A stretch of DNA of 64,000 bases, from the NCBI GenBank assembly GCA_947561585.1, contig CANNZV010000840.1, forward strand, positions 124,001 to 188,000, written 5' to 3'. Below are positions 6,151 to 64,000 of the stretch, piece by piece. The number at the start of each line of letters is the position of its first letter. Within the stretch, counting starts at the first letter, position 1. The stretch is from Caprella mutica (taxonomy: Eukaryota > Arthropoda > Malacostraca > Amphipoda > Caprellidae). Both the position numbers and the translations under genes were made by a program. The notes below the pieces were generated by a model. That model had not been told where the DNA came from. It did no database searches and was given only the letters and a program-made list of their open reading frames with translations.

Positions 6151-6378
6151 CAAAATTAATAATTGATTTAATGCTCTTCAAATGGAAAAGTAAATTCATA
6201 ATAAATGTGACATTGATTCAAAAGTTTACAGTAGCAACTGATTTAGAGCAATAGTTATATTTTTATTATATGTAAATAATGACTGTGCAGTGTATAAATT
6301 TTTTGTGTGGAGAAACTTTACATTATGATATCCTACATGGGATTAATTAACTGCAATAATAACCATGAGTGAGAAAAT

Positions 6379-7745
6379 AACCAGAGTGAACCTTTAAATG
6401 ACTGGAGTGAACCTTTAAATGACTGGAGTGAACCTTTAAATGACTGGAGTGAACCTTTAAATGACTGGAGTGAACCATTAAATGACTGGAGTGAACCTTT
6501 AAATGACTGCAGTGAACCTTTAAATGACTGCAGTGAACCTTTAAATGACTGGAGTGAACCTATAAATGACTGGAGTGAACCTATAAATGACTGGAGTGAA
6601 CCTTTAAATGACTGGAGTGAACCTTTAAATGACTGGAGTGAACCTATAAATGACTGGAGTGAACCTTTAAATGACTGGAGTGAACCTTTAAATGACTGGA
6701 GTGAACCTTTAAATGACTGGAGTGAACCTTTAAATGACTGGAGTGAACCTTTAAATGACTGGAGTGAACCTATAAATGACTGGAGTGAACCTTTAAATGA
6801 CTGGAGTGAACCTTTAAATGACTGGAGTGAACCTATAAATGACTGGAGTGAACCTATAAATGACTGGAGTGAACCTTTAAATGACTGGAGTGAACCTTTA
6901 AATGACTGGAGTGAACCTATAAATGACTGGAGTGAACCTTTAAATGACTGGAGTGAACCTTTAAATGACTGGAGTGAACCTTTAAATGACTGGAGTGAAC
7001 CTTTAAATGACTGGAGTGAACCTTTAAATGACTGGAGTGAACCTATAAATGACTGGAGTGAACCTATAAATGACTGGAGTGAACCTTTAAATGACTGGAG
7101 TGAACCTTTAAATGACTGCAGTAAACCTTCAAATGTTTGTGTGAATCTTTTAATGTTTGTGTGAACATTTAAATTACTGCAGTGAACCTTTAAATGACTG
7201 CAGTGAACCTTTAAATGACTGCAGTGAACCTTTAAATGACAGCAGTGAACCTTTAAATGACTGCAGTGAACCTTTAAATGACTGGAGTGAACCTTTAAAT
7301 GACTGGAGTGAACCTATAAATGACTGGAGTGAACCTATAAATGACTGGAGTGAACCTTTAAATGACTGGAGTGAACCTTTAAATGACTGGAGTGAACCTT
7401 TAAATGACTGGAGTGAACCTTTAAATGACTGCAGTGAACCTTTAAATGACTGGAGTGAACCTTTAAATGACTGGAGTGAACCTTTAAATGACTGGAGTGA
7501 ACCTTTAAATGACTGCAGTAAACCTTCAAATGTTTGTGTGAATCTTTTAATGTTTGTGTGAACCTTTAAATGACTGCAGTAAACCTTCAAATGTTTGTGT
7601 GAATCTTTTAATGTTTGTGTGAACCTTTAAATGACTGCAGTGAACCTTTAAATGACTGCAGTGAACCTTTAAATGACTGCAGTGAACCTTTAAATGACTG
7701 CAGTGAACCTTTAAATGACTGCAGTGAAACTTTAAATGACTACAT
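6379..7745. repeat. 21-bp minisatellite, about 65 units
   Basis: The unit contains CTTTAAATGACTGGAGTGA with alternating CTTTAAA/CTATAAA and TGGAG/TGCAG variants. Three times (near 7116, 7514 and 7576) it is interrupted by the same longer variant containing AAATGTTTGTGTGAATC, which shows block duplication of units. Because 21 is divisible by three and the unit has stop-free frames on both strands, long periodic open frames appear on both. I do not treat them as genes. Confidence 0.95.
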
Positions 7746-18479: not shown

Positions 18480-19375
18480 TTTCTATATCCGTAGGTAAAC
18501 AGACTGACTATGTAGGTCTCTTATCCATGGGTAAGCAGACTGACTGTGTAGGTCTTTTATCCATGTCTAAGCAGACTGACTGTTTACTGTGTAGGTCTCT
18601 TATCCATGGGTAAGCAGACTGACTGTGTAGGTCTCTTATCCATGGGTAAGCAGACTGACTGTGTAGGTCTCTTTTCCATGTCTATAAGCAGACTGACTGT
18701 TTACTGTGTAGGTCTCTTATCCATGAATAAGCAGACTGACTGTGTAGGTCACTTATCCATGGGTAAGTAGACTGACTGTGTAGGTCTCTTTTCTATGTGT
18801 AGGCAGACTGACTGTGTAGGTCTCTTATCCATGGGTAAGCAGACTGACTGTGTAGGTCTCTTATCCATGGGTAAGCAGACTGACTGTGTAGGTGTCTTAT
18901 CCATGGCTAAGTAGACTGACTGTGTAGGTCTCTTATCCATGGGTAAGCAGACTGACTGTGTAGGTGTCTTATCCATGGGTAAGTAGACTGACTGTGTAGG
19001 TGTCTTATCCATGGGTAAGCAGACTGACTGTGTAGGTCTCTTATCCATGGGTAAGTAGACTGACTGTGTAGGTCTCTTTTTTATGTGTAGGCAGACTGAC
19101 TGTGTAGGTCTCTTATCCATGGGTAAGCAGACTGACTGTGTAGGTCTCTTATCCATGGGTAAGCAGACTGACTGTGTAGGTGTCTTATCCATGGCTAAGT
19201 AGACTGACTGTGTAGGTGTCTTATCCATGGCTAAGTAGACTGACTGTGTAGGTCTCTTATCCATGGGTAAGCAGAATGACTGTGTAGGTCTCTTATCCAT
19301 GGGTAAGCAGACTGACTGTGTAGGTCTCTTATCCATGGGTAAGAAGACTGACTGTGTAGGTCTCTTATTCATGAG
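18480..19375. repeat. 36-bp minisatellite with higher-order structure, about 24 units
   Basis: The unit contains CTTATCCATGGGTAAGCAGA and CTGACTGTGTAGGTCT. Recurrent variants (GTGTCTTATCC, TTTTCTATGTGTAGG, TCCATGGCTAAG) repeat in the same order at 18780-18920 and 19075-19215, so blocks of several units were copied together. As 36 is 12 codons, the minus strand is open for 207 codons of a 12-residue periodic sequence. No start context, signal or homology suggests it is expressed. Confidence 0.92.
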
Positions 19376-19911
19376 TGTCTATTCTTACCATCAATGAGCT
19401 GGGTTTACACGGTTACCTGTGGTAGCCGAGTAGTCGATCTTGTGCATGAAGCGTACTTTCACTGGCCTCTCTTCTACGAGTCCATTTTCTCTTCATGTCT
19501 CTAATCACCTCTTACTTGATAGGGACAATTAAAATTAGTTATCTCGCTTTGAATAATAATACCATTAATAAAGAAAATAGTCAATTACATAATTATGTCA
19601 AGAAGAAATGTAGTATTTTATTAATGAACTCAATCATTTTTGTTTGTTTGTTTGAACATCTAATGGAACGTCACACACCCATTTACACTCGCAGTACTCG
19701 GAAAGTGCGTGTTACCATAAGTCACGATAAGATTATTTTCAATAGTTTGTTAAGTTGTTCCACACTTCTTATTCTTAACTATCCAATTATAATTTATTTA
19801 CCAATTACAAAATACACTATTTATGGGAAAACCCTAATACTATTTTCCCTCTAAGGTACTCGAAACTGCGAAGACGAAGGACGACTAACGACTTGCTACT
19901 CCGCCTTCAGG

Positions 19912-22900: not shown

Positions 22901-25900
22901 AGAGAATTCCATTATTCAGTAAATAAACTCTAAATAATATATATTATATCGTATTTTCTTCATGACTGAAAATGTGAAACAAACCGACAATTCGTAACGT
23001 AAAGTTGCTGTAACAACAAAATTCCAGGTGAATCTAGCGGCAACGGCAAAGATATGTGCCAAATTCACTCCGCTCGTATCAACTTCTGGTGCCAAACCTG
23101 CAAGCAAGCTGTCTGCAGAGACTGTACAGTGATAGCCCATCGGCAGAACCAGGGCCACAAGGTTAGTTCAACCTACTTATTGTCAAAGGAAACTCTATTC
23201 TTCTTCAGTAGGAGACAATTAAACTACAAAATATACATAAATCATGAATACGTGATATATACCCGGATAAAAAGTTGCGGTTGGGCAACCAAATAGGTTT
23301 TCTATGGTCCCACCAAACTTTCATTCTGAGTATAGTCGCGTACGGTTAAGAAAGGCAAGAAAGAAGTTTTCAATTATTCATTTGAAGTGCACCACAGAGA
23401 TTTAGAGTAAAGAGACTCGAAATAAAATAATAGAGAAGATTGATAGTATAGTACATGATGACTCGTTTTACTTGATATAATAAATATCATAACTATTACA
23501 TAAAAAAATATATTTCATAAAAAATTATGTATCATATAAAATATGTTTGATAAGAAATATGTTCCATAAGAAATATGTTCCATAAAATTCATATTTCATA
23601 AAAAATCAAACTTTATAAAAATCATATTTCATAAAATCTAATTCATACAAATCATATTTCATAAAAATAATATATCATAAAAATAATATTTCATAGAAAA
23701 TTTATTTCATAGGAATCATCATTAAATTTTAAACAGTATCTACTTCTTACATTTTGATTGAATATCACTGAAAAATTATTTATACATCTTCCTAGAAGCT
23801 TCTTCACACATGCCATGCAGTGATCCGTCCGTGATTTATCCGTTCCATCTCCTCTCGAGCTTGCTTTAGTATTAGTGAAAAAATATGTCGTTACTTTAAT
23901 TTCAACGGACACGTTCACACAGTACTGGATCCTCTCAGTGCTAAGAAATCACTGAGAGGAGCCGAACCAGACGGAAACCTGTCATGTTTGAACAAGCCTT
24001 AAAGGTGATACCGTGAGATATTAGCGTAACCTATCAACGCAGGTCTTGGATCACGATGAGGCCCTATCGTACCTCAGAGCTGAGGTGAGGCAGGCTACTC
24101 TTGATGCTCGCAATATTCGCCTGGAGACTCGGAAGCTGAGACATGACCAGAGACAGTATCTCAATAAGCAGCTGGAGGCTTGCCGCGCCTTTGAAAAGAA
24201 CCTCAAGGCACAATTGAAGGCCATGTCATCTGATAAGAAAGAAGAGGTGGGTAGCACTGTCATATATCCTGAGGTAAAGTGATTGTCGGGTTATGGAAGA
24301 TAAAGTTGGCTACAGGCCACCCTTTTAATCTCATTGGTGTGACCAAAACTTTCTTAGTAGGTAACTAGAAACAGCTGAAACATAATACATTTTGAACCTG
24401 TTTTTCTCATCCTAAATAAATAATTCAAGATGCATGCCAAACTGAACTAAGAAATAGCGGATATCATGCTAAGAAAATAGAAGGCAAAAAGACAAAGAAA
24501 ATTCAAATAGTGTTCTCTGCTAAATTTCCGTTTAATTGATTCAATCAGGCCCGGGCCCTAGACCGAGTAGAGACTGACGCTAACTCTACCACCAGTCTTA
24601 TCAGTCTCATAGAGGCTGCTAGCAAAGCTAGTGAGGTGAGACTTGCCGCTGCTAAAGACTTTGCCCAGGCTAAGAAAACTCTTCAGAATAATCTGATGGC
24701 TGTGACTCAACTGAACAGGTCTTCAGATGAGCTGGATTGTCTGGATGACAAGTGAGTAGATTGGTTACCATTTAACTCAAATCTAAAATTCAATTGATCA
24801 AAATGAAGGGAAAAAACTGCTGAATTGAAGTAAACGGTTGATATTGAAAACAATTTTTATGATGAAATACATTTTAATTCAGTCATTCATTTTTCAGCTC
24901 GTATAATTACGCTCCTGGATCTCCTGGTTTGGACCGAAAAGGCAAGGCAGGATACGGTGTCAGGTCTTGGCATCTTACTCGACCAGCCCTAAGTTTCGAC
25001 ATGATGGAGGCTAAGATCCGACCACTGCCTAAAGTCTATATCGATCTTGCTATCGAAGGAATCCAAGTAAATTTCCACTTACTGCTTATGATATGATGGT
25101 CAGTGATGATAGGAAGAAACTATTTCTGTTTTAAATTTCGCAGCAAAGAGGACGTATCGTGATTGAGTTGAGACCTGACAAGGCACCTCGATTGTGTGAG
25201 AACTTCACTATGCTCTGTTCTGGAGAAAAAGGATTCGGCTACAAGGGCTGTAAGGTGTTCCGATGTCTACCAGGATGGTGGATTCAGGCTGGTGATTTCG
25301 CTACTAATGATGGAGAAGGCGGAAGAGCAGCCTCAGACGATGAGTTAATCGAAGCTGAAACCACGGGTAAATTACCATTAGAACCATTAAATTATAGGGA
25401 ATTAGAATAACATGATTATAAACACGGCATTGGCGTAAATTGAATCGTGATTACCTCTGATGAAACTGTAATCGGGTTAAGATGTATGTTTGGAACAAGG
25501 AAAGATAACGGACCAGAGTTTGTTATCTTTCCTTGGTTAAATTCTGGTCCGTTATCTTCACCAGCTTCATTTCTGGTCCGTTATCTTCACAAGCTTCATT
25601 TCTGGTCCGTTATCTTTTATTGGTTAAATTCTTAATATTGAAACAATAATTGGAATAAGAATAATATTTTGGAATCATAGATATGATGTTAAAGGATATA
25701 ATCAGATTTTTTATCCATTTTTTAATTACTTAGTCTTCACAACATATCAATTATAAGGTTGTATATTTATAAAAACTAAAGGAAATTTTATCAAAACTAA
25801 TGGAATCTGTGTTATTTTTCATCAATTCTTTCAATTATCATATGTCTGGTACTTAATCTATACTAGCTTAATTTCTGGTCCATTATCTTTACTAGCTTAA

Positions 25901-30986: not shown

Positions 30987-33980
30987 TTTTCAGAGTGTCC
31001 ATATGTTCATCATCACATCTACGAGGTGAAGACTTACTATTGTTACAGCATTGCCCGAATATTGCAGCATTGTCCTGATCTTAATTTATTTGATCACGTT
31101 CGCCCGGAGGAAAATACCCAATCCCAATATTATACTGTTAATGAATATAATGATTCTACACCAGAGGAAGCATTTACTGTGATCAATTACAATATAAGAA
31201 GCTTTAACAAAAACTTTGACACTTTTGAAGCAATGTTGTCTTCTCTACATTCGTATCCTGATATTTTAGTACTCACTGAGACATGGCTTTCTACTGCAGT
31301 GAATGTAGATGGGTACGAGTCATTCCACACTTTTCGAAGTGAGAGGCGGGGTGGGGGAGTGTCAGTATTTTGTAGCGAGTCTATAAAGGTTAAGAGGGTG
31401 AGTGAATTATGCATAAGCTCAGATGTTATGGAGTCGTGTACAGTTGAGATATATGTCGGGGGCATCAAATACATTATTCTGGCTGTGTATAGACCTCATT
31501 CGGGAACTATCCCTGAATTTATTGCACAGTTGAGTGATGTGGTGAATGGTTTGTCCTCGAATATGAATATTTGTATCTTGGGGGATTTTAATATTAATTT
31601 GCTCGATCTCTATAGCGCGAATGTTACTGAGTTTTCCACTGTGATGCATTCGTTTCATCTTTTACCTATTATAACAGAGCCCACTCGCTTTCCTCCAGCA
31701 TTGTTAAATCAACTTCCTTCCCTATTAGATCATATATGGATTACTGCAAGCTCCGCAGAGATGGTGAAGTCAGGTATCATTTTGTATGACGGAACTGATC
31801 ATTGTCCAACTTTCATTTCGTTCCTTGCGAATGGTGGAGTGTGTTCTGATGATAAAATAAAAATATGTTTTCGTTTAGTCAATGATGGTAATAAGGAGAA
31901 CTTTTTTAGGCGGGTGGAGCGAGAAGATTGGGATTCTTTGTTTTTATCTGATGACGTGGATGTTGTTTGTGTAAATTACTTCAAGCGTTTAAATGAACTG
32001 TATTGTTCTTGTTTCCCCTTAAAAATCAAATATATTGGAAGAAAGCGTTTCTCAAAACCATGGCTCACACCTTCTATTCTGGATAAAATTAAGGAAAAGT
32101 CTATTGCGTTTAAACGGTTCAAATTGGGACTTATCAGTGAGTCAGAAAATAAAATTATTAGGAATAGAGTGAACGTATTAGTTAAAAAAGCAAAGAAGGA
32201 GCACTACCGTAATGTTTTTGATGGATGCAGTGGTGATGTTGGAAGGACTTGGAAGGCGATTACAAAGATTATCTCTTATAGCAAAAAAAAATGTGCAGTT
32301 GAGAGTATTATTTATGATGGAGTTGAAATCACACAATCTGATGACATCTCTCGATTATTTAACTCATATTTTTCTAGTATATCTGCAAATATTGATAGAT
32401 CTATTCCAGTTATTAACGAATCTCCTCTTCATTATGTCAATTTTAACATACAATCTTCCATCTTCCTAAGTCCTGTGACTCGTGGCGAATGTGAATTGAT
32501 CATAAAGTCTTTAAAAAATAAAAAAAATAATATTGATACAATTTCTACTAGCGTTTTGAAGTCAGTTAGTGGGATGGTTGGTGCTCATTTTTCGAAAATT
32601 ATTAACATGTCACTGAAGAATGGCGTGTTTCCCGATATATTTAAATCTGCTGTTGTAGTTCCTATTCACAAGAAGGGTGAAGTGACTGATGTCGGGAACT
32701 ATCGCCCAATTTCTCTGTTACCTCTATTTAGCAAAATAATTGAAAAGTGTGTAGCAGTGAGACTGATGGATTTCTTTGTTAAATTCAACATTATAACTCC
32801 TGATCAATACGGCTTTAGGAAGGGTTTATCAACAGTAGATGCGTTGTTGAATTATACCGATTATTTGTATGACTGCTTGGATAACAAAAAGCATGCTGTA
32901 AGCGTTTTCATAGACTTCAGCAAGGCTTTTGATACAGTTAACCATAATATTTTACTTGATAAATTGAATCTATATGGTGTACGCGGTTTGGCCCACAAAT
33001 GGTTTGCTTCGTATTTGTCGGGACGTAGGCAGCGTGTCAAAATTGGGTCATCCTTTTCTGAGGAGTTGCGAGTTTCGAGTGGTGTTCCTCAAGGAAGCGT
33101 ACTGGGACCTTTATTATACCTTATTTACGTAAATGAACTCCCAAGTGTTTTTCCTGATTTAAAAACTACCCTCTTTGCTGATGATACTACGCTAACCGCA
33201 ACCCACGAAGATTATATTAGTCTTACAAATTCCCTAAATGTACATCTTGAAAAATTGTCTTCGTGGACTTTTGCGAATAGGCTATCCTTAAATGCCGCAA
33301 AAACTAATTTGCTCCTATTTTCAAATGTCCTCTCATCAAATCTTGTTCAATCTAACATCTTTATTAATGAAGCAAGGATTGACTTTTGTTGCAGTACAAG
33401 GTTTCTGGGGGTGGATCTGGATAGCAGGCTGAAGTTCAATATTCATTTGAATTCTCTTTCGAGTAAGTTATCTAAAGTTGTTGGTATCTTATATAGGTTG
33501 AGTCAGTTTATGCCGCAAAAGTCCTTAATCTCAGTATATTACAGTTTATTCTACCCATATATATTGTACTGTAACTTAGTGTGGGGTGAAACGTATGATA
33601 GTCATCTCAATACTATAGGAATGTTACAGAAGAAAGTAATTAGAATTATTACGGGAAGTGAGTTTTTAGCGCACACCAATCCCCTTTTTGTTCGTACTAA
33701 TATACTGAAGGTGCGTGATGTTCATAAATTTCTGCTTGGCGTCTACATGTATAAAAACTTATCCTCATTTAGGCTCCCTGATTATCATTATAGAACTAGA
33801 CAGGCTAATGATCCAGTTGTTCATTATCCCAGACTCACACTGTCAAGACATAGTATTAGTTTTAGTGGTCCGAAATTTTGGAATGCATTGCCACCTCAAA
33901 TAAAGAACTCTCTTTCAGTTGCAATATTTAAACGGTCATTGAAGAGTTATCTGATTGACCAATATGTTGAAACATCATAG
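30987..33980 (+). CDS. Endonuclease-reverse transcriptase of the LINE
   Basis: The frame opens after TAA at 30984 and runs uninterrupted to TAG at 33978, about 997 codons. There is no ATG before the endonuclease domain; the first codon usable as an alternative start is GTG at 31026. The endonuclease shows INYNIRSF, LTETWL and LGDFNINLLD. The reverse transcriptase shows NYRPISLLP, QYGFRKGLST, SVFIDFSKAFDTV, SGVPQGSVLGPLL and the catalytic FADDTT. The C-terminus has FWNALPPQIK and FKRSLKSYL, common in CR1-related elements. The protein would nick the target and prime reverse transcription there. No stop or frameshift is seen, so the copy is young or still selected. Confidence 0.9.
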   Translation, partial: FSECPYVHHHIYEVKTYYCYSIARILQHCPDLNLFDHVRPEENTQSQYYTVNEYNDSTPEEAFTVINYNIRSFNKNFDTFEAMLSSLHSYPDILVLTETWLSTAVNVDGYESFHTFRSERRGGGVSVFCSESIKVKRVSELCISSDVMESCTVEIYVGGIKYIILAVYRPHSGTIPEFIAQLSDVVNGLSSNMNICILGDFNINLLDLYSANVTEFSTVMHSFHLLPIITEPTRFPPALLNQLPSLLDHIWITASSAEMVKSGIILYDGTDHCPTFISFLANGGVCSDDKIKICFRLVNDGNKENFFRRVEREDWDSLFLSDDVDVVCVNYFKRLNELYCSCFPLKIKYIGRKRFSKPWLTPSILDKIKEKSIAFKRFKLGLISESENKIIRNRVNVLVKKAKKEHYRNVFDGCSGDVGRTWKAITKIISYSKKKCAVESIIYDGVEITQSDDISRLFNSYFSSISANIDRSIPVINESPLHYVNFNIQSSIFLSPVTRGECELIIKSLKNKKNNIDTISTSVLKSVSGMVGAHFSKIINMSLKNGVFPDIFKSAVVVPIHKKGEVTDVGNYRPISLLPLFSKIIEKCVAVRLMDFFVKFNIITPDQYGFRKGLSTVDALLNYTDYLYDCLDNKKHAVSVFIDFSKAFDTVNHNILLDKLNLYGVRGLAHKWFASYLSGRRQRVKIGSSFSEELRVSSGVPQGSVLGPLLYLIYVNELPSVFPDLKTTLFADDTTLTATHEDYISLTNSLNVHLEKLSSWTFANRLSLNAAKTNLLLFSNVLSSNLVQSNIFINEARIDFCCSTRFLGVDLDSRLKFNIHLNSLSSKLSKVVGILYRLSQFMPQKSLISVYYSLFYPYILYCNLVWGETYDSHLNTIGMLQKKVIRIITGSEFLAHTNPLFVRTNILKVRDVHKFLLGVYMYKNLSSFRLPDYHYRTRQANDPVVHYPRLTLSRHSISFSGPKFWNALPPQIKNSLSVAIFKRSLKSYLIDQYVETS

Positions 33981-41600: not shown

Positions 41601-44556
41601 CTGAAAAATGATATGTGATCTGATAGTAATAAGAAAAATTCATTTTAATAATAAAATTAGACAATTTCTCCATTTTTAAATTCATTTTAAACTCATTTTC
41701 AGCTGATAAATACCCCAAGTTATCAGTATCTAGTAAATGCTCAATTTTTTAAACGATAGAAAATTAAATTAAGAATGCTCATATTCTTGCGAGTACTTGG
41801 TTTTCCATTCTCATGGAATGTTATCTTGGAAGAAGATTGGTTCAATGTGGCGAATCCATCCCACTGAATTGTCATACTGGCCCAACCTGATTAATATATA
41901 GCGTATCAACATATTATATAGTGTCCACATGGGCCCCGTAAACTGTGTTGCTTGGGATGTAGCATTATGAATTTTCTAAAAATATATTAGAAAAACATAT
42001 ACATATCTGAAATGAATGTTCCTACTTGCCTTTGAGTTAAATGTGAAATGTATCTTTCCCTCGAAGTAATGAAAGACAGATTAGAAATTTTTGTAATAAT
42101 TAATGAACCGCTTTCTATGTGAGCCAAATAGTAGGTACTTAAAGACTTATAGAATTCTTGTAGTTAAAGCCAGCCGTGGTGTAACAAGCTAAAGAGAGTT
42201 CCGACGTAGAACTAGTAGTATATAATGCCAAGAAATATTAGATATAGTATTCAGTTAGTAGGTGGGTTCAGTTCAGGTTCAACCGTTCAGTAGAGTTCAG
42301 TCGTTAATAGATAGTAAAATGAGTACAGTACTCAGAGACCGGTGTATCATGCTTCTGCGAGACGCGTGCTTTCTTGAGATTGGTTCATATCTGAGGCAAA
42401 GAGTTGATTGTGGGTGTGGCGTTATTGTTGCCAAATAGTGAGAGAAGTTGATTAGCTCTGTTTGTACCTATGCTGGTCATGTATGTGAGGTAGAGTTGAT
42501 TGTGGTGGCGGATATTAACTTACAATTACTATTGTTATTTTTAATAATCATTCAATTTAAAATGGACAATTACAATTACTATTCCATTAATTATGATTGA
42601 AATATTAAAAGTGTGTCTTTCAAATAAAAATACAAAACTAATAGTTGAGTATTAAACTTCATCGTCTTTCACGGAAGGGGTTCCACATGACCACCCTTCG
42701 AATTGAAATCGGAAAAATTAGTTATATTGGAAAACAATTTTAAAATCGATTTGCTTAATGGCATAATATATTTATTTTACACAAAACAACTTATGAATTG
42801 AAATCTAAAAAAAAAGCTGGACAAAAATTGGTTTAATGTGTTTAATGTCTGTTTCTGTTCTGTTGCTTTAGTCATTGACAGGCAACAATAATTATACAAT
42901 GTGTTACGAATATATACCACTGTCAACCTAATAAACCCGTATCACATAGTGACAATGTGGAAAACGTTTATACCACGGATTTTATCATACATATATTATC
43001 AAGACTTACCCAACCACTGTTACTATCGCGGCTCACTTGCTTGGTACTATGATATAGGCAACAACGCCACGCCCACAATAACTCTCTGTATCAGATATGC
43101 TCTATATCTCAAGAAAGCACGCGTCTCACACAAGCATAATACACCGGCCCATCCTGGCTGGAACGCTCTCATCTACTACATATACTGTAACCAAATTAAA
43201 TAAGACATTACCACTTGAGAAATATCCGTGTAAGAGCTAATAATAATACACATTCTTTTGGACCATCGTCATCTTTAATTCGGCAATATATATACAACCT
43301 TAGACAAAGTATCAATATGAATTATTTCACAGTATAAATGGTCAAAGGCAGTCAAGAAATGCCTGTTGTAGGATATTATCTTCGTGCTGCCGAAACAGTA
43401 AACGGAATATCAGTGTTCAGTACTGCCAGACGTAAAACAGATTTTTACTTAGGAATTACAATGAAAGTGCAAGAAGTTATAATTTCCATCACGTGGAAAT
43501 TTCGTAAAAGATTAAGAGGAGGATTTTTTACATTAATAATCTTCTATAGCACCACCATAACTTTCTCTAGAAGAAGTAGTAACAATATCCACCACGTGCA
43601 AATTATTGGCTAATGAAATTTTAACCGTGGATTGAGAAGGATACAACAAAAAAGTTAATACCAGAAAAGAACATGTACCTTCAATACTTATTGAAATATA
43701 CTACTTTAAAATTGGGTTCCGGGTTTTTTTGGGACACCCTGTATAAAACAATCAAAATTTAAATGTGGACATATATCTCACATGTTCTTAACTCACGTTA
43801 CTGTACATCGTCCAATTGACCATAACTTGATTGATGACCTCAGTGACCCAGAGACTATCTCCAATGACCACCACAGTCCAAGGATGACCACCAAAACAGT
43901 TCGATGTGACCATGTCCTCCATATCATCTTGATCCCATTTGTCCTCCACTTGACCCAGACACACACTTAAGTCTGAGGTCATTTGACCGACTAACGCATC
44001 CAGGTTGAGTCCTGAGTATTGGAGAAGAAAAGTAGGAATGATTAAATTAAAATTACCAGGGAGTAAGCAATGGTGAGGCCATAGAAGATTAAGTAAGAGG
44101 TTTCTCTCATCCGTAGTGGCTAAACGATAAACTTTTCTTTAGTTACACGTATTGAAGGAACCAAACTTTAAGTTTTAACTTTTTTTTTAACATATTAAAT
44201 TCGCTGACGGGACAAAAATATCGTAAAAATAAAATGCAGCAAAAATCCAAAAAATATTTATATAACTAAGCTTAGGATAGTGGTCCGGTTGGGGTCTGGA
44301 AGGGCTTTTCCCCTGGGTGGTGGAAAGTGACAAGATGTAAACTTCCTTTCGTTTTTAACCTGGGGGTTTCGGATGTTATCATCAAATTGTAACTCACCAA
44401 TATCGGTACTTGTTAACAGCACAGTGGAAGATCGGTTTAACGCCTCCATTGTACTCTTTACCAGCCCTGCCACCTCTTCCTCCATCCCCTCTTGAGCTGT
44501 TCCACCAACTCCACCATGGAGGAAAGTCAGGAGAACTACTAGAGTGAAGCAGTGCG
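35349..44556 (-). CDS. Divergent ionotropic receptor (IR), 5' exon missing
   Basis: Twelve phase-compatible exons, 5' to 3' on the minus strand: 44556-44398, 44011-43797, 40850-40733, 40433-40266, 39595-39408, 39279-39121, 38158-38038, 37633-37513, 37243-37147, 37046-36944, 36850-36688, 35610-35349. They total 1874 nt, about 623 residues. The first recognised exon begins in mid-codon with a hydrophobic run (FTLVVLLTFL), probably the signal peptide, so the ATG lies in an unseen upstream exon. Domains: a short N-terminal region; S1 starting NLHGFTV, with LTYDRTRISTPS placing an Arg where glutamate receptors bind the ligand carboxylate; M1 (VWTIIVASVLALTLVI); pore loop; M3 (LTFLSAITIVAIYSGNLTAIL); S2; M4 (LQGAFWILFSGLLFSFLSF). 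Family proteins are cation channels used in chemosensation, thermosensation or hygrosensation. Which IR this is, I cannot say. The 40733 donor (GTCAGC) is weak. Confidence 0.85.
35989..36579. mobile_element. PIF/Harbinger-like MITE in the last IR intron
   Basis: It is 591 bp. The ends are AGCCAGTATTACACTGTGG at the left and the inverse CACAGTGTAATACGGGCT at the right, flanked by TAA on both sides (35986-35988 and 36580-36582). Inverted subterminal sequence continues (GGCGCTCGC, and TCTCTCTAA against TAGAGAGAGA). A 3-bp TAA duplication fits PIF/Harbinger, but no transposase is present to prove it. Confidence 0.75.
37513..38158 (-). CDS. IR pore exons: M1 (38158-38038) and M3 (37633-37513)
   Basis: The upstream exon encodes M1 and the start of the re-entrant loop (KCLCENGQ). 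The downstream one gives the end of the loop and M3 with IYSGNLTAILASP, the IR counterpart of the SYTANLAAF gating motif of glutamate receptors. They join by G plus GC at phase 1. Confidence 0.9.
41808..41921 (-). repeat. Dispersed repeat, copy 2
   Basis: This is the inverted partner of 625-745. It lies in the 2.9-kb IR intron between exons 44011-43797 and 40850-40733. Confidence 0.7.
42335..43170. mobile_element. Inverted-repeat element in an IR intron
   Basis: The left arm (42339-42435: ACCGGTGTATCATGCTT, GAGACGCGTGCTTTCTTGAG, GTGGGTGTGGCGTT) is inverted at 43055-43150 (AACGCCACGCCCACAATAA, CTCAAGAAAGCACGCGTCTC, AATACACCGG). The arms are about 100-120 bp around roughly 600 bp of unrelated DNA. 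The outer limits are not defined. The 100-codon plus frame at 42901-43203 lies mostly in the right arm and shows no domain. Confidence 0.65.
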
Positions 44557-44562
44557 CTGGAA

Positions 44563-45180
44563 AATGTAGTTTGAAATGATTTGTAGTTTGAAATGATTTG
44601 TAGTTTGAAATGATTTGTAGTTTGAAATGATTTGTAGTTTGAAATGATTTGTAGTTTGAAATGATTTGTAGTTCGAAATGATTTGTAGTTTGACATGATT
44701 TGTAGTTTGACATGATTTGTAGTTTGAAATGATTTGTAGTTTGAAATGATTTGTAGTTTGAAATGATTTGTAGTTTGAAATGATTTGTAGTTTGAAATGA
44801 TTTGTAGTTTCAAATGATTTGTAGTTTGAAAAGATTTGTAATTTGAAATGATTTGTAGTTTCAAATGATTTGTAGTTTGAAAAGATTTGTAGTTTCAAAT
44901 GATTTGTAGTTTCAAATGATTTGTAGTTTCAAATGATTTGTAGTTTCAAATGATTTGTAGTTTCAAATGATTTGTAGTTTCAAATAATTTGTAGTTTCAA
45001 ATGATTTGTAGTTTCAAATGATTTGTAGTTTCAAATGATTTGTAGTTTCAAATGATTTGTAGTTTCAAATGATTTGTAGATTCAAATAATTTGTAGTTTG
45101 AAGTGATTTGTAGTTTCAAATGATTTGTAGATTCAAATAATTTGTAGTTTAAAATAATTTGTAGATTCAAATTATTTATA
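44563..45180. repeat. 17-bp minisatellite upstream of the first recognised IR exon, about 36 units
   Basis: The unit is TTTGAAATGATTTGTAG in the left half and TTTCAAATGATTTGTAG in the right half, so a single-base variant has spread through half the array. On the gene strand the array ends only about 8 bases before the acceptor of exon 44556-44398. It would thus occupy the polypyrimidine and branch region of that intron. Confidence 0.95.
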
Positions 45181-53679: not shown

Positions 53680-53937
53680 TCACGGCTTGGCCATCGCGTC
53701 CTCCTCCTCGTCCGTGAACAAATAGGTACTCCAGTAAGCCATGTTGAAGAATGCGAACACCAAAGGGAAGGTGATTCGACTGATGACGTCGATACGCTTG
53801 CTTCTGGTGGGGAACTTTGCAAGCCAGCTTTTGCAGCAGATTGTCTTGCTGGTGGATGGGTGGACCTGACAGGGCTGGGACTTGTCAGATGAGGCACTGC
53901 TGCCCATTCCCCCGTTATGACGGGACACTAGTGGTTT
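53680..53937 (-). CDS. GluCl: GluCl last exon: loop end, M4, C-terminus
   Basis: 86 codons with TGA at 53680-53682. A Ser/Cys-rich loop segment is followed by [18 protein letters not shown]4 ([20 protein letters not shown]) and an acidic tail ([11 protein letters not shown]). The acceptor TTCTACAG joins the ATG codon ending the M3 exon to AAA CCA in phase 0, matching the usual insect GluCl junction. Confidence 0.93.
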   Translation of the reverse strand, partial: KPLVSRHNGGMGSSASSDKSQPCQVHPSTSKTICCKSWLAKFPTRSKRIDVISRITFPLVFAFFNMAYWSTYLFTDEEEDAMAKP

Positions 53938-56900
53938 CTGTAGAAATAAAGTTATTGATTCAGGATTCTTTTTTCAAGAGAATAAGGATATAAACGGATG
54001 AACGTTGTCGACTTACTTTTGAGATTATTTCAAAAAAGTATAAAATATTGTATTATATTATTGTAAAAGATACTGAAGTTCAAAATTGAATTATACATTT
54101 TTATCTTATACAGGGTGGATCGAAAAAAGCGGAACCCAAATTTGATTTAATATATCTCAGAAACTATTAACGTTATCAACTTTCTAAAATCACCATTGTG
54201 TTTCTTTACTTTTTTTACACAAATGGTGAAAAATTCAAAATTATTCATACATCTATATTGATGCTACAGTAATTATAGTAAACGGTGTCATAAGTATGCT
54301 TGCGCACAAGCAGAAAAATTTATTAAAAAATTTTTTTGACAAAAATACCTAACACAACAATCCTTCACAATATATCATTAACAAACCACATGTCCTCCAT
54401 TTCTTCATGTCCTCCATTTCTTTACATAATTTAATCCTTGTTCTTATTGCTGCCATAACTCTTTTAATTAATGCAGAGTTTTCTTAGAGACAATTCACTT
54501 CACTCGTGATACTCTCATTCAAGTCGTCTAAGTTCACAGGCGAAGTTGAGTACTCTTACTCTTCAATGTCCAAATAAGAAAAAATCACCTGGGGTCATTT
54601 CCAGTTATCTTGGGGGCACCTCATTTGCATAGTTTATTGCAATAGTGCAAATGTTGAACACATCAGTTAGCAAATGTCGCACAACGATCGTCATGGCAGT
54701 AATGAGAACATGGATTGAATTAGATAATTCGTGAAGAAATGAAGGACTTGTTGAAGGATTCGGTAGATAGTGAGGTAGAAATACAGATTAAATATATATT
54801 TTATAATGGATTGTTTAGAATATGATATAAATATATAATATTATAGTGTTTTTCTGTAATTAAAAATAATCTTCGTAACTTTAAGTTTGTGCGCAAGCAT
54901 ACTTATGACACCGTTTACTATAATCACTGTAGCATCAATATTGACAAATGAATAGTTTTCAATTTTTCACCATATTGCTATGTAAGAAAAGTAGACAAAC
55001 ACAATTTAATTTTAGAAAATTCATAATGTTAGTAGTTTCTGAGATATATAAAATCAAAGTTGGGTTCCGCTTTTTTTTACCCACCCTGTATATCTATATA
55101 TTATATTTCAGATATTTCTGTTTCAGTGAGCGTTACAGAAGGAGAATATATTCAATATACTATGAATATATTAATAACAGAACACATTTTAACTCATATA
55201 AAAGGGAATGAAAATAAAAAACGATAATATACCATCAAATACAGAAAGTTTATAACACTAATAAAATTCTTTAACCTTCATTCTAATTACCCTTACTTCG
55301 AGTCCATTAAATGAGGGTAACTCTCGTGAGTTCACCCACCACCTAAATCTTATTAGATAAAGTTACGGAGTAGATCTCAGCTGTCGTTATATTATTCCAA
55401 TTAAAACTTTCCTTCCCAGGGAGAGATTCTGAGAAATTATTAATAACTTTTGGTGCACCAAGCAAGGGAACAGAAGAAGCAAGGTGAGATTACAGTTATA
55501 GGTAATTATGTAGAGAAATTGTAGAGAAATTATTGCTGTTTGTTGTCTAATAGCATAGATTATATAACTTTAGTGAGATAGCTGTCGAAATTATAGTGAA
55601 TGTGAATTAATAGTTCTTTGTAAATACATCGTGTAAATTAATTAAGAGATTTAATTCGAAATGTGAATTTTACGAAATATGAAACAGTCGTGAAATTTGA
55701 TTTTTTTTTTTAATAATTTGATTTTTTTTTCAATAATTTTATTTTTTTAATTCTTATTCAAATTTCCTGATAGTACAATAATAGCATTACATACATTTAT
55801 GCATATGTTATATTATTTGAATGCATTCAGGTAGAGTAATATGCATGCAGGTATAGCAATATGGAACACCAAAAAGGAAAGGTTGGATTTGTGACTGAAG
55901 AGAAGAGGTTAGGATTTTGAGGCTTCAGAAAATAGGAGAAGGATTTCTTCCTTTGGATTCTGAAAAGATCCTGCCACTTTATTATCATCAACATAAGAAA
56001 GAAAGTGAAATTCACAATTTCTTGTTAGTTCATTTGAAAAAGATCAAATTTACTGGTCGTTTTCGTTTAATTTAGAAATATTTAGATTTTTTTTAGAAAA
56101 ATTTCTACCAATTAGTAATCAATAAGCTTAGAATTGTTACAAGGTAATTTTATAGAAGAATCTACCCTTGGCTAAATTTTAATAAATTTTGGAAAGTATG
56201 ACGAATGCCAAAGGAAAAATATATAGAGATACAAGCGAATATTTAGAGTGCTTTTCTAGCATTTAAAGAGGCAGGACTTCTCAATGATAATTTGTTGTTG
56301 TTGTTAACCACTCAATCACCAGTCCAAACTAACGCTGTGGTCAGAGTCGCACATACCCAAAGATTGGACTTTCTGTCTCCATTTCCTCTCTTGCTCACCA
56401 TTGAGAAAGATGAGCCACCATCGACACCTTGCTCAGCCTGCTCCATCTGCGCCTGCAGCGCTGCCTGGTGCTCAAGCTCCCACTCCTTCAACTTGTCTTT
56501 GAGTTTCTCCCGATGTTTGTCAGACCTGGAGGCGTAGTTGACCAGAGCGAACTCTAGCAGTGCAGCGAACACGAACGTGAGACACACGCCCGTCCACACG
56601 TCTATAGCCTGAAACAATTTACGTGGTATTAGTGAAGTGGAAACTGGAATCGTGATTTTGTTGATGAATTGTGATGATGCTTGGCTTTAGAAAACTGAAA
56701 CACTAATTCTGATAATTTGACAGAAAAAAATATAAATATTATTAATTTGATTTCATTTGAATAGAGATTAGTTATTCAGTTTATTAGCCTTTTTTCAAGA
56801 AGAAATCTAATTTCAAAACCAATTGATGTAACGAAAGCGTTTTGTTAATTTTTTAGTAATGTGTGCTTTTAGAATTTTAGGCATAAGATTTCCTCGCAAA

Positions 56901-59900: not shown

Positions 59901-62726
59901 CTATCGTTGTAATTAGAGTAGATCCTATTTTGAAGCATTTGGTTCAATTCATTATTTCTTCTTATTTTGTCTCTTTTCAGTCAGTGATCATTCTGAAAAC
60001 TCTGACTTCTTGGTGAATGAAATGATGGATCCAGACATCTTGACGAATCAAGTGAAGGAATCAGACTTCTTAGTCCAAGATTTCTTGAAAATATCAAGTT
60101 TTAAGTTGGAATATCTGAGATCACACACAGACTTTCACAGTCCCTCTTTCAGTTTTCTCTGAGCAGTTTACGTGAAAGCACCAAATTCAAACACAAATAC
60201 CTTAAATTGAGATTCACAGTTTCGTTGAGATATCTCTGGAATATGGAATAGGTGAACCACCAAACCAGTTTAGGACAATCCCAGTCTAAAGGATGAACAG
60301 AAATTCATTAATGACGATTGTAAAACCAAGAGAGTATAAGATGGTTGGATGATTTTGAAAAATTAAAATTATATTGCAGTGAAAGGGGATAGTAAATCTA
60401 TTGATCTTATGAAAAGAAAATTGAGATAAATGTAGAGTAATATTTTAAATAAAGATTCGAAATAAGTCTTTCAATTCACGAACTATTGATTCCAAATGCT
60501 GAAAACTGGTCAGATATGTCGGTAAATAGATATCATGGCTTTGTATACAAAATTTCAATATGTTTGTCACCCAATATAAAATAAAAATTGATATGCAATA
60601 TAAAGAAAAAAGAATATGAAACACAATACAAAACTTGGCAATCTGAAGTGGACTCCTTCACATTCATCTCTATTCTTTAACTACTGACGTCAAAATGGCG
60701 TAGTGGATAAGCTCTTCAGAGATACAGTATACGTCATCATGACGTCAGAGTGGCTGGAATGATGATCAGGCGTCCACTTAACATAGACATTATTCGAGTT
60801 CGCTTACCAGCTTCAGTTCGATAGATAGCACAAGGCTTTTTGTTAATCAAAATCAGGTAGGTACAAGTTAAAAATAAAAGACAGAAAACTCGGAAGAGTT
60901 AACAGAATTCTCGCTACCGTAAGTATCATCGAAAAGATGGATCTAGTGATTTAAAATAAATGATATCACTTGCAATGCATTGAAACAGCGATACTCACTC
61001 TATCTGTAAATGTAACTCATAGATTGAAACAACTAATTCCTAATAAAGAAAATATATGCACCTAATGATGGATAATTAGTGAAGTTTTAAATCGTCCAAT
61101 GATTTTGAAATGATAGATGGTGCTCTTTTAGGAAAATATCGGTTTAAATATGAAAATAAGTTTGAAAATGATGACTAGATGATATTTACAAAAGTTTAAT
61201 GCTCTGTACTTTTGTATATTCCGCAGATGATTGATTAAGATTTGATATTCGGTCGAATTATATATAGTAGAAACATCTTTCAAAATATACAAAAATTAAA
61301 GAATGGATCGGTTGAATGATAGGAATAGTTTGAACTAACTAGAAAAGTTTGAACTTCAGAAAAATATTTAATATAAATTAGCATATTCTCGATTTTGACT
61401 ATATATATATTAAATAAACATTTGAGATCTATTTCAGATCATTGATAAAAAAGAGAACTTCTAAAAGGCATAGTAAATGTCGCAATTCAGTTCATCAATA
61501 AATTATGATACACGATGAAACAGCGATTCAAATTGGAGCCTCTGTAATTATTTAATAAGAGTCATGTAGTATCACTCATGAAGGAGAATTCTCTGTAGAA
61601 ATATGAAAAAGAGAACAATGTGTATCGTTGTTTCAAACTGGCGGAACAGGTTCCTTCACATAGTAGCACTGTTTCAAAAACATTGCAATAGTTTATGGTA
61701 CTCATAACCACGGTGATGAACATAGGTACAGTCGGCTTAAAGATCGTCATGGGGGAGACTGCAGTGCGCGTTACACAACTGGCGACTCTGGTCAGCATGC
61801 ATTACTCTTAGGAAATAATAAACATCAATGTGTTAGGCGACATGGTAGAGCTGATAGAGTGTGTTACAGCAAGAGAACCAATCAACACCAACAACTCTTA
61901 ACCTTGGTATAAGACACGGGAGGCAGCGTATTGTTAATGCTCGAGGTCTGGGTAGACATCGTGAGAAGGGTGGTGACACCCAACGAGACTCGAGCCGGCA
62001 CAGATTTGGCATCCAGCCAGAAGGAAACCCATGAGACGATCACCAACATACAGCAAGGGATGTAGTATTGGATGAGGTAGTATGAGAACTCTCTTTTGAA
62101 TACAAAATCCACCTTGAGACAGCTGTAGGAACCTGTGCATCCATAAAGAACTCATCAATGTCTTTTAAACTGGAATTATTTTTATGTTAGAAGTGTTGTG
62201 TACCTTTGTGTAGGAGACAGGAGGTAACGTCTGGTTAATACTCGAGGTCTGTGTAGACATCGTCAAGAGTGTCGTTACTCCAAGCGATACACGAGCTGGT
62301 ACTGACTTGGCGTCAATCCAAAAGCTAAACCATGACACGATGACCAGCATACAGCAAGGCACGTAGTACTGGATCAAGTAGAATGAGAATTCTCTCTTGA
62401 AGACCAAATCAACCTGGAGGCAGCTGTAGGCACCTGTGTGATTGTACGGAATGTTGTTAAAGATTTGAATTAGGATCATGCAGAATGTGAAGGTACCTTG
62501 GTGTAGGAGACAGGTGGCAGAGACGTGTTGATACTAGAGGCATGAGTTGACATATTAAGTAGCGTGGTGACGCCGAGAGCGACTCGCGCAGGTACTGCAT
62601 TTGGATCCAGCCAGAAACTGACCCATGAGACAATGACCAACATACAGCACGGCACGTAGAACTGCACAAGATAGTAGGAAAACTCTCGTTTGAAGATAAA
62701 GTCGACTTGCAGACAACTGTACTCGC
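53680..62726 (-). CDS. GluCl: Glutamate-gated chloride channel, 3' half
   Basis: Exons on the minus strand: three alternative M1-M2 exons (62726-62497, 62433-62204, 62132-61903), the M3 exon (56608-56399) and the last exon (53937-53680). The motifs are those of insect GluCl: YSCLx[18 protein letters not shown], PARVx[54 protein letters not shown] and YWSTYLF. The protein is a pentameric Cys-loop chloride channel in neurons and muscle, the target of avermectins. The signal peptide, most of the ligand-binding domain and the Cys-loop are absent; those exons must lie beyond 64,000. No splice-consistent upstream exon was seen in 62,727-64,000. Optional exons in the 2.5-kb last intron were not found. 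Confidence 0.93.
54111..55088. mobile_element. Tc1/mariner-like non-autonomous element in the last GluCl intron
   Basis: It is 978 bp flanked by TA on each side. The ends are CAGGGTGGATCGAAAAAAGC and the inverse CCGC plus TTTTTTTTACCCACCCTG. The inverted arms are about 220 bp, sharing GGAACCCAA, AAACGGTGTCATAAGTATGC and GATGCTACAGTAAT. The interior has no transposase. A TA duplication and CAGGGTG ends fit the Tc1/mariner superfamily. Single related ends (CACCCTGTATA) occur near 1911 and 43735. Confidence 0.82.
56399..56608 (-). CDS. GluCl: GluCl M3 exon
   Basis: 70 codons, phase 0 at both ends. [20 protein letters not shown] is M3, followed by the start of the intracellular loop ([12 protein letters not shown]) and a Glu/Gln-rich amphipathic stretch. 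The Gly of WTG, changed in some avermectin-resistant mites and moths, is intact. The FVFA position is Gly in Drosophila as I recall it. Confidence 0.93.
56609..61902. other. GluCl intron of 5.3 kb, nothing recognised
   Basis: The intron is AT-rich throughout. No additional channel exon, array or clear inverted element was seen. Minus-strand open frames at 58375-58644, 59526-59711 and 61562-61798 have no channel motif or suitable splice sites that I could join to the gene. Confidence 0.6.
61903..62132 (-). CDS. GluCl: GluCl alternative exon gamma (M1-M2)
   Basis: 230 nt, same phases. It encodes SYSCLKVD, M1 ([19 protein letters not shown]) and M2 with [19 protein letters not shown]. Of the three it is closest to the canonical insect sequence in M1 and the M1-M2 linker (SWVSFWLD). 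The donor AAG/GTTAAG leads into a 5.3-kb intron before the M3 exon. Confidence 0.92.
62204..62433 (-). CDS. GluCl: GluCl alternative exon beta (M1-M2)
   Basis: 230 nt, same phases as the others. It encodes AYSCLQVD, M1 ([19 protein letters not shown]) and M2 with [19 protein letters not shown]. The pore residues are the usual insect GluCl ones. Distinctive are Phe for Val in SWFSFWID and Ile for Leu in WID. It is separated from alpha by a 63-bp intron and from gamma by 71 bp. Confidence 0.92.
62497..62726 (-). CDS. GluCl: GluCl alternative exon alpha (M1-M2), divergent pore
   Basis: 230 nt, entry at phase 1 (G plus GC) and exit at phase 0 (ACC AAG then GTACCT). It encodes EYSCLQVD, M1 ([19 protein letters not shown]) and M2 with [19 protein letters not shown]. 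Relative to the other two copies, M2 has Ala at 2', Asn at 10', His at 14' and Ala at 15'. The acceptor is TTATCACAG. It is the first of the three in transcription order and carries no stop or frameshift. Confidence 0.92.
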
Positions 62727-64000
62727 CTGTGATAATAATGAAATAACACCAATCATACCTTAGCTCATTTTAAATGGACACAAGTAGACAACAACTTTAA
62801 AGCGGTGAATACAACGTATCTCGTAGAACTTCTCCTCAGTGTCAGTGATGTAGCTAGTAGGGGTAAATTCTACAGTTCTACATCTTCTACTTTTACCTGC
62901 AATACTATAATGGAGATATATGTATGCATATGTAAATATAGCATAGATAAAAACAAAATAGGTGCACTCTCATATATGGATAAAATATTTTTAAATTGTA
63001 TTTAGTATAACATTTATAAGTTATCAATTTACAAATTAGTGAAAACAAAAAATAAAGACACAATTTATAACTGAATTCAACAGTTTTCATAAAGTTAGTA
63101 AATGAATTTAAATGCTAATATCAATAATAGAATATCATAGTAACTAGAAATAACGTGCAAGTTAAATATTATCTGGAACGTCTGTGATAAAAGCTAAATA
63201 TATTTCAATATTAAAAATACAGTGAAGCCTGAAACAAAAGAAAATATTAGTTAAGAGTTGAAGACAAGAGGAAATGTGTCAGTGTAACGGAAGAAAAGGA
63301 AATATTTCGTACATTATTTTATTATCTGACAAAAGTAACTATGAATTAATTAGATATTCACTGTGCTACTTTTTTTTTAATTTCTTATTCAAAAACACCT
63401 ACTTAATGTTTAATGATGCAGAGAAACTTATACAGGAACTCAGTCAGCTCACTTTACCATATATAAGAACTGTTGATTTTCTTAATTGATCAGCATAAAT
63501 ATATATATATCAGTCAAAATAATCTTTTATACTTGGTTTCACTACCCAAATTACGGACTTTAGTCCTCCAACTAATTTCCCCATGAAGGAACCTAATTGC
63601 GGTAGAATGGTCGGATCTCTCAGCAGTTTCTTTCATTTCAATAAAGGTAGAACTTGAGGGAAGAATTCTGCTGTAGGATTTCAATTACTTCAATGGAAGG
63701 TTAAAGAGCGGCAGAAAAGAGATCCTGAAATTCACCTACTCAGTGTCTGTGTCTGTGTGGGTGTGTGTGTGTGGTGTGTGTGTGTGTGTGTGAGTCGTCT
63801 TAACGATATTAAGGTAGGTTTTAACCCCAGGGGGATTTGGTATGTCGAGGAGAAAGATACGTGTCCACAGTCAAGATAATTGAATCTTTAAAGGTTCTTA
63901 CAAAAAGTAAAAAGATATGTTGAAGCCGTAGTCCCTCTATAGAATCTCTGTGTCCTTTGATGCAAGAATGCATATATTTCTATATTTTGTATAATATAGT
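62727..64000. other. GluCl intron continuing off the window
   Basis: No Cys-loop or ligand-binding-domain exon can be read on the minus strand here. A (GT)n microsatellite lies at about 63743-63793. The preceding GluCl exon must be beyond the window end, making this intron at least 1.27 kb. Confidence 0.6.
63743..63793. repeat. (GT)n microsatellite
   Basis: A run of TGTGTG with a few interruptions (GTGTCTGTGTGGG, GTGGTGTG), about 50 bp. Confidence 0.95.

Follow-up and report, generated by a model that had tools for sequence, protein, structure and literature searches.

Three tandem M1-M2 exons in a glutamate-gated chloride channel gene probably exchange the channel pore

The window analysed here is a stretch of 64,000 nucleotides from a 345-kb contig (C840), which is part of a 903-Mb assembly. 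On its minus strand, from 62726 to 61903, three tandem exons of 230 nt were found, named cassettes A, B and C (Table 1). They correspond to the three direct repeats detected in the window (61901-62137, 62202-62438 and 62495-62731). Each cassette is preceded by AG and followed by GT, begins with 2 bases finishing a split codon and continues with 76 codons in the open frame of the glutamate-gated chloride channel (GluCl). The phase is equal in A, B and C, and cassette A contains a second open frame besides the GluCl frame. Each cassette encodes the final pre-M1 residues, M1, M2 and the first part of the M2-M3 loop. Being homologous neighbours of one phase whose splice sites are intact, the cassettes have the features of a tandem exon set. 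Repeat and frame analysis confirmed the three tandem, stop-free M1-M2 copies of 230 nt with AG/GT sites described by the initial annotation, and its intron sizes (63 and 71 nt) and M3 exon start (56608) were confirmed as well. Using tblastn, no further cassette copies were found within the window, in introns 7 and 8 or in other fetched gene parts, and no extra decayed copies across the fetched parts of four GluCl genes. Scanning the window against Rfam at gathering scores and for tRNA genes gave no matches, and no relatives were found among viral contigs. Elsewhere in the window, long minisatellites with open frames (6373-7561, 18749-19378 and 44258-44928) and a LINE-like open frame of 997 codons with endonuclease and reverse transcriptase domains (30987-33980) were observed. 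A B-box zinc finger (23003-23296) and a cyclophilin-type isomerase (25135-25410), 2 kb apart on the plus strand, are possibly one gene.

Table 1. Positions of the cassettes, their introns and the common downstream exons in the window.
Feature	Positions	Strand	Remark
Cassette A (exon 8A)	62497..62726	-	pre-M1, M1, M2, start of M2-M3 loop
Cassette B (exon 8B)	62204..62433	-	
Cassette C (exon 8C)	61903..62132	-	
Intron A-B, 63 nt	62434..62496	-	48/62 aligned positions match the intron of the C3468 paralog
Intron B-C, 71 nt	62133..62203	-	20/22 of the first nt as in the paralog; little similarity beyond
Common M3 exon, 210 nt	56399..56608	-	
Common last coding exon, 258 nt coding	53680..53937	-	M4 and stop

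Exons 2-7 lie upstream on the same contig, beyond the window, and were found with a Drosophila GluCl probe. Together with one cassette, the M3 exon and the M4 exon they form an open frame of 440 residues to the stop, be it with A, B or C; the product was counted from exon 2 to the stop, exon 1 not being located. Among the eight cassette combinations only single A, B and C remain open, while none, AB, AC, BC and ABC stop early. The claim that only one-at-a-time products are translatable was thus upheld, as all five other combinations are truncated. The frame-length argument originally given for it is incomplete, since three copies together (690 nt, a multiple of three) keep the frame arithmetically. 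However, in ABC the second copy is read in a frame containing a stop, and hence the one-at-a-time conclusion stands. As a separate observation, a 36-bp minisatellite with about 25 copies (C840:213400-214292; L011 5400-6292) has the donor end of exon 2 as its first unit. A 5' splice-site-like sequence is thereby repeated many times downstream, and the array may extend past the scanned stretch.

Comparing the cassette-C product with solved chains, the best match was C. elegans GluCl alpha (3rhw; 368.8 bits, E 3.8e-109), followed by a glycine receptor with 352.2 bits. For M1-M4 alone glycine receptors lead, with 172.8 versus 168.8 bits for 3rhw. Aligned stretches spanning the cassettes were 68-82% identical to the Drosophila GluCl sequence. 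Reading the translation by eye, we found a Cys-loop with 13 residues between the cysteines (C-PMNLKLFPLDKQQ-C) and a second cysteine pair (YCNSKTNTG-x-YSC), the last Cys of which is supplied by every cassette. By eye, PAR precedes M2 in A, B and C and likewise in A' and B', the cassettes of a paralogous gene described below. Judged by closest sequence, Cys-loop, second cysteine pair and PAR, the gene is a GluCl. It does not group with the nicotinic subfamily: the best 60 of 169 matched solved chains were GluCl, glycine or GABA receptors or chimeras.

The three copies are 70-78% identical in DNA and 78-89% in protein. A and B share 162 of 230 nt and 59 of 76 residues, A and C 166 nt and 61 residues, B and C 180 nt and 68 residues. 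Nei-Gojobori dS exceeded the correctable range for A/B and A/C and was 1.67 for B/C; the dN values were 0.137 (A/B), 0.135 (A/C) and 0.091 (B/C). For each exon and distance, neutral drift without selection was simulated 2000 times. The best run retained 40, 42 and 41 of 76 residues at 0.5 changes per site, and at 0.3 changes per site at most 55 were retained, compared to the 59-68 observed. At the larger distance, between 4 and 8% of the runs were free of any stop, which makes the lack of stops less telling than protein identity. As silent sites are near saturation and the protein is still 78-89% identical, the cassettes are under purifying selection by this measure. The three copies are neither an assembly duplicate nor decaying relics, two possibilities which the initial annotation had held against its own reading.

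A genome search with Pfam PF02932 yielded at least 84 matches, with 150 of 180 candidates scored. The cassette comparison took in 21 loci, the remaining matches being judged, untranslated, by their lower scores alone. Besides the three window exons, two cassette-type exons 292 bases apart were found on contig C3468. This contig carries a second GluCl gene with open exons 2-7 and its own cassettes A' (93% amino acid identity to A) and B' (83% to B). No C' was found among the 21 loci compared, including the assembled part of the C3468 paralog, and that contig stops 132 nt past B'; C is therefore backed by one gene only. Further GluCl genes on C1734 and C340 showed a single such exon each in stretches spanning exon 7 to M3, and the genome contains at least four GluCl genes. 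A tree built from the codons of the seven exons grouped A with A' (support 99), B with B' (98) and C with both B exons (84). The A/B split, judged by these sequences, predates the GluCl gene duplication and, by this tree, so does the B/C split. With both splits older than the duplication, C' would have been lost or is unassembled. Values for dN and dS were 0.029 and 1.01 for A/A', 0.093 and 0.36 for B/B', and 0.081 and 1.97 for exons 2-6 of the window gene versus the C3468 paralog. In the C1734 paralog, 10 copies of a 42-bp unit repeat the donor end of exon 7 (L017 5480-5904). The units read are open in the gene frame, with indels occurring in the array; depending on which donor is chosen, repeats of 14 residues could be added immediately ahead of M1.

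Intron A-B measures 63 nt in the window gene and 62 nt in the C3468 paralog. In the first 22 nt, 16 positions of intron A-B and 20 of intron B-C were identical between the two genes, compared to 4-11 in six other introns, the lengths of which differ up to about forty-fold between the genes. No conservation was found in the 60 nt preceding A (23 of 60 identical). In a gapped comparison of the last 60 nt, intron A-B gave 49 identical positions, its shuffles reaching 30 on average and 43 at most; however, two other introns gave 40 each, which counts against A-B conservation. The difference between the genes amounted to 0.23 for intron A-B, with a pS of 0.28 for B and 0.70 for exons 2-6. Selection on splicing signals and local gene conversion could both account for the similarity of intron A-B, and the low silent-site divergence in B could also reflect local gene conversion. 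A TTAAC branch-point-like motif was found in both genes, 40 and 39 nt from the A donor and 23 nt from the B acceptor.

Donor strength was scored with a generic donor matrix, on which the scores depend. In the window gene, exon 7 and the three cassettes scored 4.3, 5.0, 4.0 and 3.4, the six other donors 6.6-11.6. In the C3468 paralog, exon 7 and the two cassettes scored 4.4, 5.4 and 3.8 and the five other donors 6.5-8.6. For the two GluCl genes with a single exon 8, values of 10.5 and 9.0 (exon 7) and twice 7.0 (exon 8) were obtained. The contrast is weaker by U1 duplex energy. Cassette donors gave -5.1 to -5.7 and exon 7 donors, which come out stronger on this scale, -6.4 and -6.9; values of -4.9 to -5.4 for exon 6 in each gene and for exon 3 in the paralog put these donors level with those of the cassettes. 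Each of the 14 other introns measured in the two genes is longer (at least 142 nt) than the cassette introns, so that steric exclusion might prevent the joining of A to B and of B to C. The initial proposal that short introns ensure exclusivity holds to this extent; it does not reach A and C, which are separated by 364 nt. This pair needs another safeguard, and the frame shift covers it. Six RNA pairings among the cassette introns and their close flanks were no better than shuffles (22-100 of 100 shuffles were as good). The pairing of intron A-B with introns 7 and 8 was ordinary compared to shuffles. Intron B-C gave -34.8 with intron 7 (20 shuffles: mean -26.9, best -36.8) and -31.6 with intron 8 (mean -26.4, best -31.6). 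Both values lie near the best shuffle, yet a clear competing RNA structure did not emerge; such pairing is one possible mechanism of several and not a requirement for mutually exclusive splicing.

Taken together, we consider it highly probable that A, B and C belong to one functional GluCl gene as a mutually exclusive set, by which the pore is swapped. Reading frame, purifying selection, the A-B layout of the paralog and weak donors support the mutually exclusive pore exons proposed at the outset well. In the predicted mechanism, exon 7, encoding the end of the ligand-binding domain, would splice to a single cassette, either A, B or C, and this cassette to the M3 exon. Three subunits would result, with a common ligand-binding domain and M3-M4 part and three different M1-M2 pore modules. 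The single choice may be made through competition of the weak donors, for adjacent pairs perhaps aided by steric exclusion in the 63- and 71-nt introns, and wrong products would be removed by nonsense decay. The outcome would be changed channel properties, most strongly with cassette A.

Other explanations for the same arrangement were weighed. The cassettes might serve as a dose switch, in which double joining or skipping leads to a premature stop and nonsense decay, tuning the amount of channel and not the pore type. Five of the eight combinations do stop early and weak donors would favour skipping, but one skipped exon would suffice for this purpose, and there would be no need for three long-conserved coding versions with fixed M2 differences; we regard this explanation as improbable. 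Still less probable is that one cassette is in use, with two remaining as relics of ancient duplications of the exon. The lack of a counterpart of C in the assembled part of the C3468 paralog agrees with this idea. However, in all three cassettes as well as in A' and B', reading frame, exon length, splice sites and the greater part of the protein sequence have been maintained despite near-saturated silent sites, and drift as simulated would leave far less protein identity. Finally, tandem near-repeats are in general prone to misassembly. Here, the copies differ at 22-30% of bases, all three lie within a single 345-kb contig and the A-B layout was found again on C3468, so that an assembly artefact or collapsed alleles can hardly be credited.

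Differences between the cassettes were numbered along M2, with R0' placed at residue 245 by count in the 3rhw alignment. Cassette A carries Ala 2', Asn 10', His 14' and Ala 15', all four of which are kept in A'. Cassettes B and C both have Ser 2', Thr 10', Gln 14' and Thr 15', and B' has Ser 2', Thr 10', Gln 14' and Met 15'. Cassette A further differs from both B and C at -6' to -4', 20', 21' and a few M1 positions. Between B and C there are 8 residue differences, all outside M2 0' to 19'. As B and C are alike in this stretch and A is not, cassette A is predicted to differ most in function. Position 15' corresponds to Ser260 of C. elegans GluCl, which we take to be a hydrogen-bond partner of ivermectin. 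The site of picrotoxin and dieldrin includes position 2' (PMC4569296). By alignment to the solved chains, position 14' corresponds to Q266 of human GLRA1, for which Q266H is described to lower glycine sensitivity and open time (PMC3895786, accessible part). By analogy, cassette A would change positions 2' and 15' of picrotoxin- and ivermectin-type sites and place His at 14', where Q266H impairs gating in the glycine receptor. We tentatively suggest, at somewhat less than even chances, that the pore-splicing switch predates the GluCl duplication, that cassette A alters gating and drug block, and that neurons and muscles set inhibitory kinetics and drug sensitivity in this way with transmitter binding unchanged.

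The choice of pore exons as such has precedents. In the nematode gene avr-14 the ion-channel part is swapped by splicing and the ligand-binding domain is common to AVR-14A and AVR-14B (PMC3144221). The likeness consists in one GluCl gene with a common ligand-binding domain and alternative channel parts by splicing, here a prediction. The avr-14 products are described as different from the channel domain on, their intracellular parts included, whereas here the M1-M2 exon alone would be exchanged, with three choices, and M3, loop and M4 are common. In insect nAChR alpha6, exons 8a, 8b and 8c are three alternatives changing TM2 that most likely arose by tandem duplication (PMC2064938, accessible part). 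Three alternative tandem pore exons are thus shared; however, alpha6 belongs to a cation channel of another subfamily, and the present gene may work alike without being a member. For insect GluCl, splice variants of exon 3 and exon 9 are named in the accessible part of PMC10380907. Alternative exons within a GluCl gene are the common feature, but the exon 3 variants affect the ligand-binding domain, unlike the M1-M2 cassettes. No insect-like duplicated exon 3 was found by tblastn in the fetched stretches, the window gene and the paralog having a single exon 3 each. A survey of tandem-exon substitution in vertebrates, arthropods and nematodes includes GLRA2, GluClAlpha and avr-14 among its families (PMC9741552, accessible part). 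The initial annotation knew of no tandem M1-M2 cassettes in GluCl; in the accessible literature avr-14 is a precedent for the pore switch (PMC3144221), and the part of the claim that stands concerns arthropods, as no description of M1-M2 cassettes in arthropod GluCl was found in the accessible parts of the open-access literature, the scope of this search. The exchangeable M1-M2 exon set in an arthropod GluCl, predicted from the genomic sequence, is therefore treated as a new variation on a known theme.

The assignment to an arthropod group was approached via arginine kinase, found as one gene on contig C472. Its best single-domain solved chains were 5zhq (625.7), 4bg4 (624.8), 8yx0 (618.4) and 4am1 (611.5), followed at 570.6 by the next single-domain chain from another entry; 1m15 reached 542.6. 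Double-domain chains head the list, 4rf6 with 686.0 and 4wo8 with 639.3, each summing two stretches. The chain 8yx0 is labelled Pro c 2.0101. We take 5zhq to be from mud crab, 4bg4 and 4am1 from white shrimp, Pro c from crayfish and 1m15 from horseshoe crab. The affinity indicated is that of a malacostracan crustacean, as far as one gene compared with a set perhaps lacking hemipteran chains can show. A further arginine-kinase-like gene was seen on contig C2 (at least 2.7 Mb; L026), with a second uninterrupted frame next to it in the same orientation. Judged by eye, the setting is compact and bacteria-like, and C2 may be a bacterial contig within the assembly. The hemipteran origin initially assumed was not borne out, with 5zhq, 4bg4 and 8yx0 nearest in arginine kinase and at least four GluCl genes compared to the one reported in insects (PMC10380907, accessible part).

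GluCls are the target of avermectins. In crustaceans they are described as postsynaptic receptors in the stomatogastric ganglion, and a single GluCl transcript was reported in crab and in lobster each (PMC5096308, accessible part), compared to at least four GluCl genes in this genome, which counts against the crustacean assignment. If one gene provides three pores, pharmacology based on one cDNA would miss two thirds of the channel types. If this holds true, the cassettes would also constitute a natural set of pore variants for gating studies.
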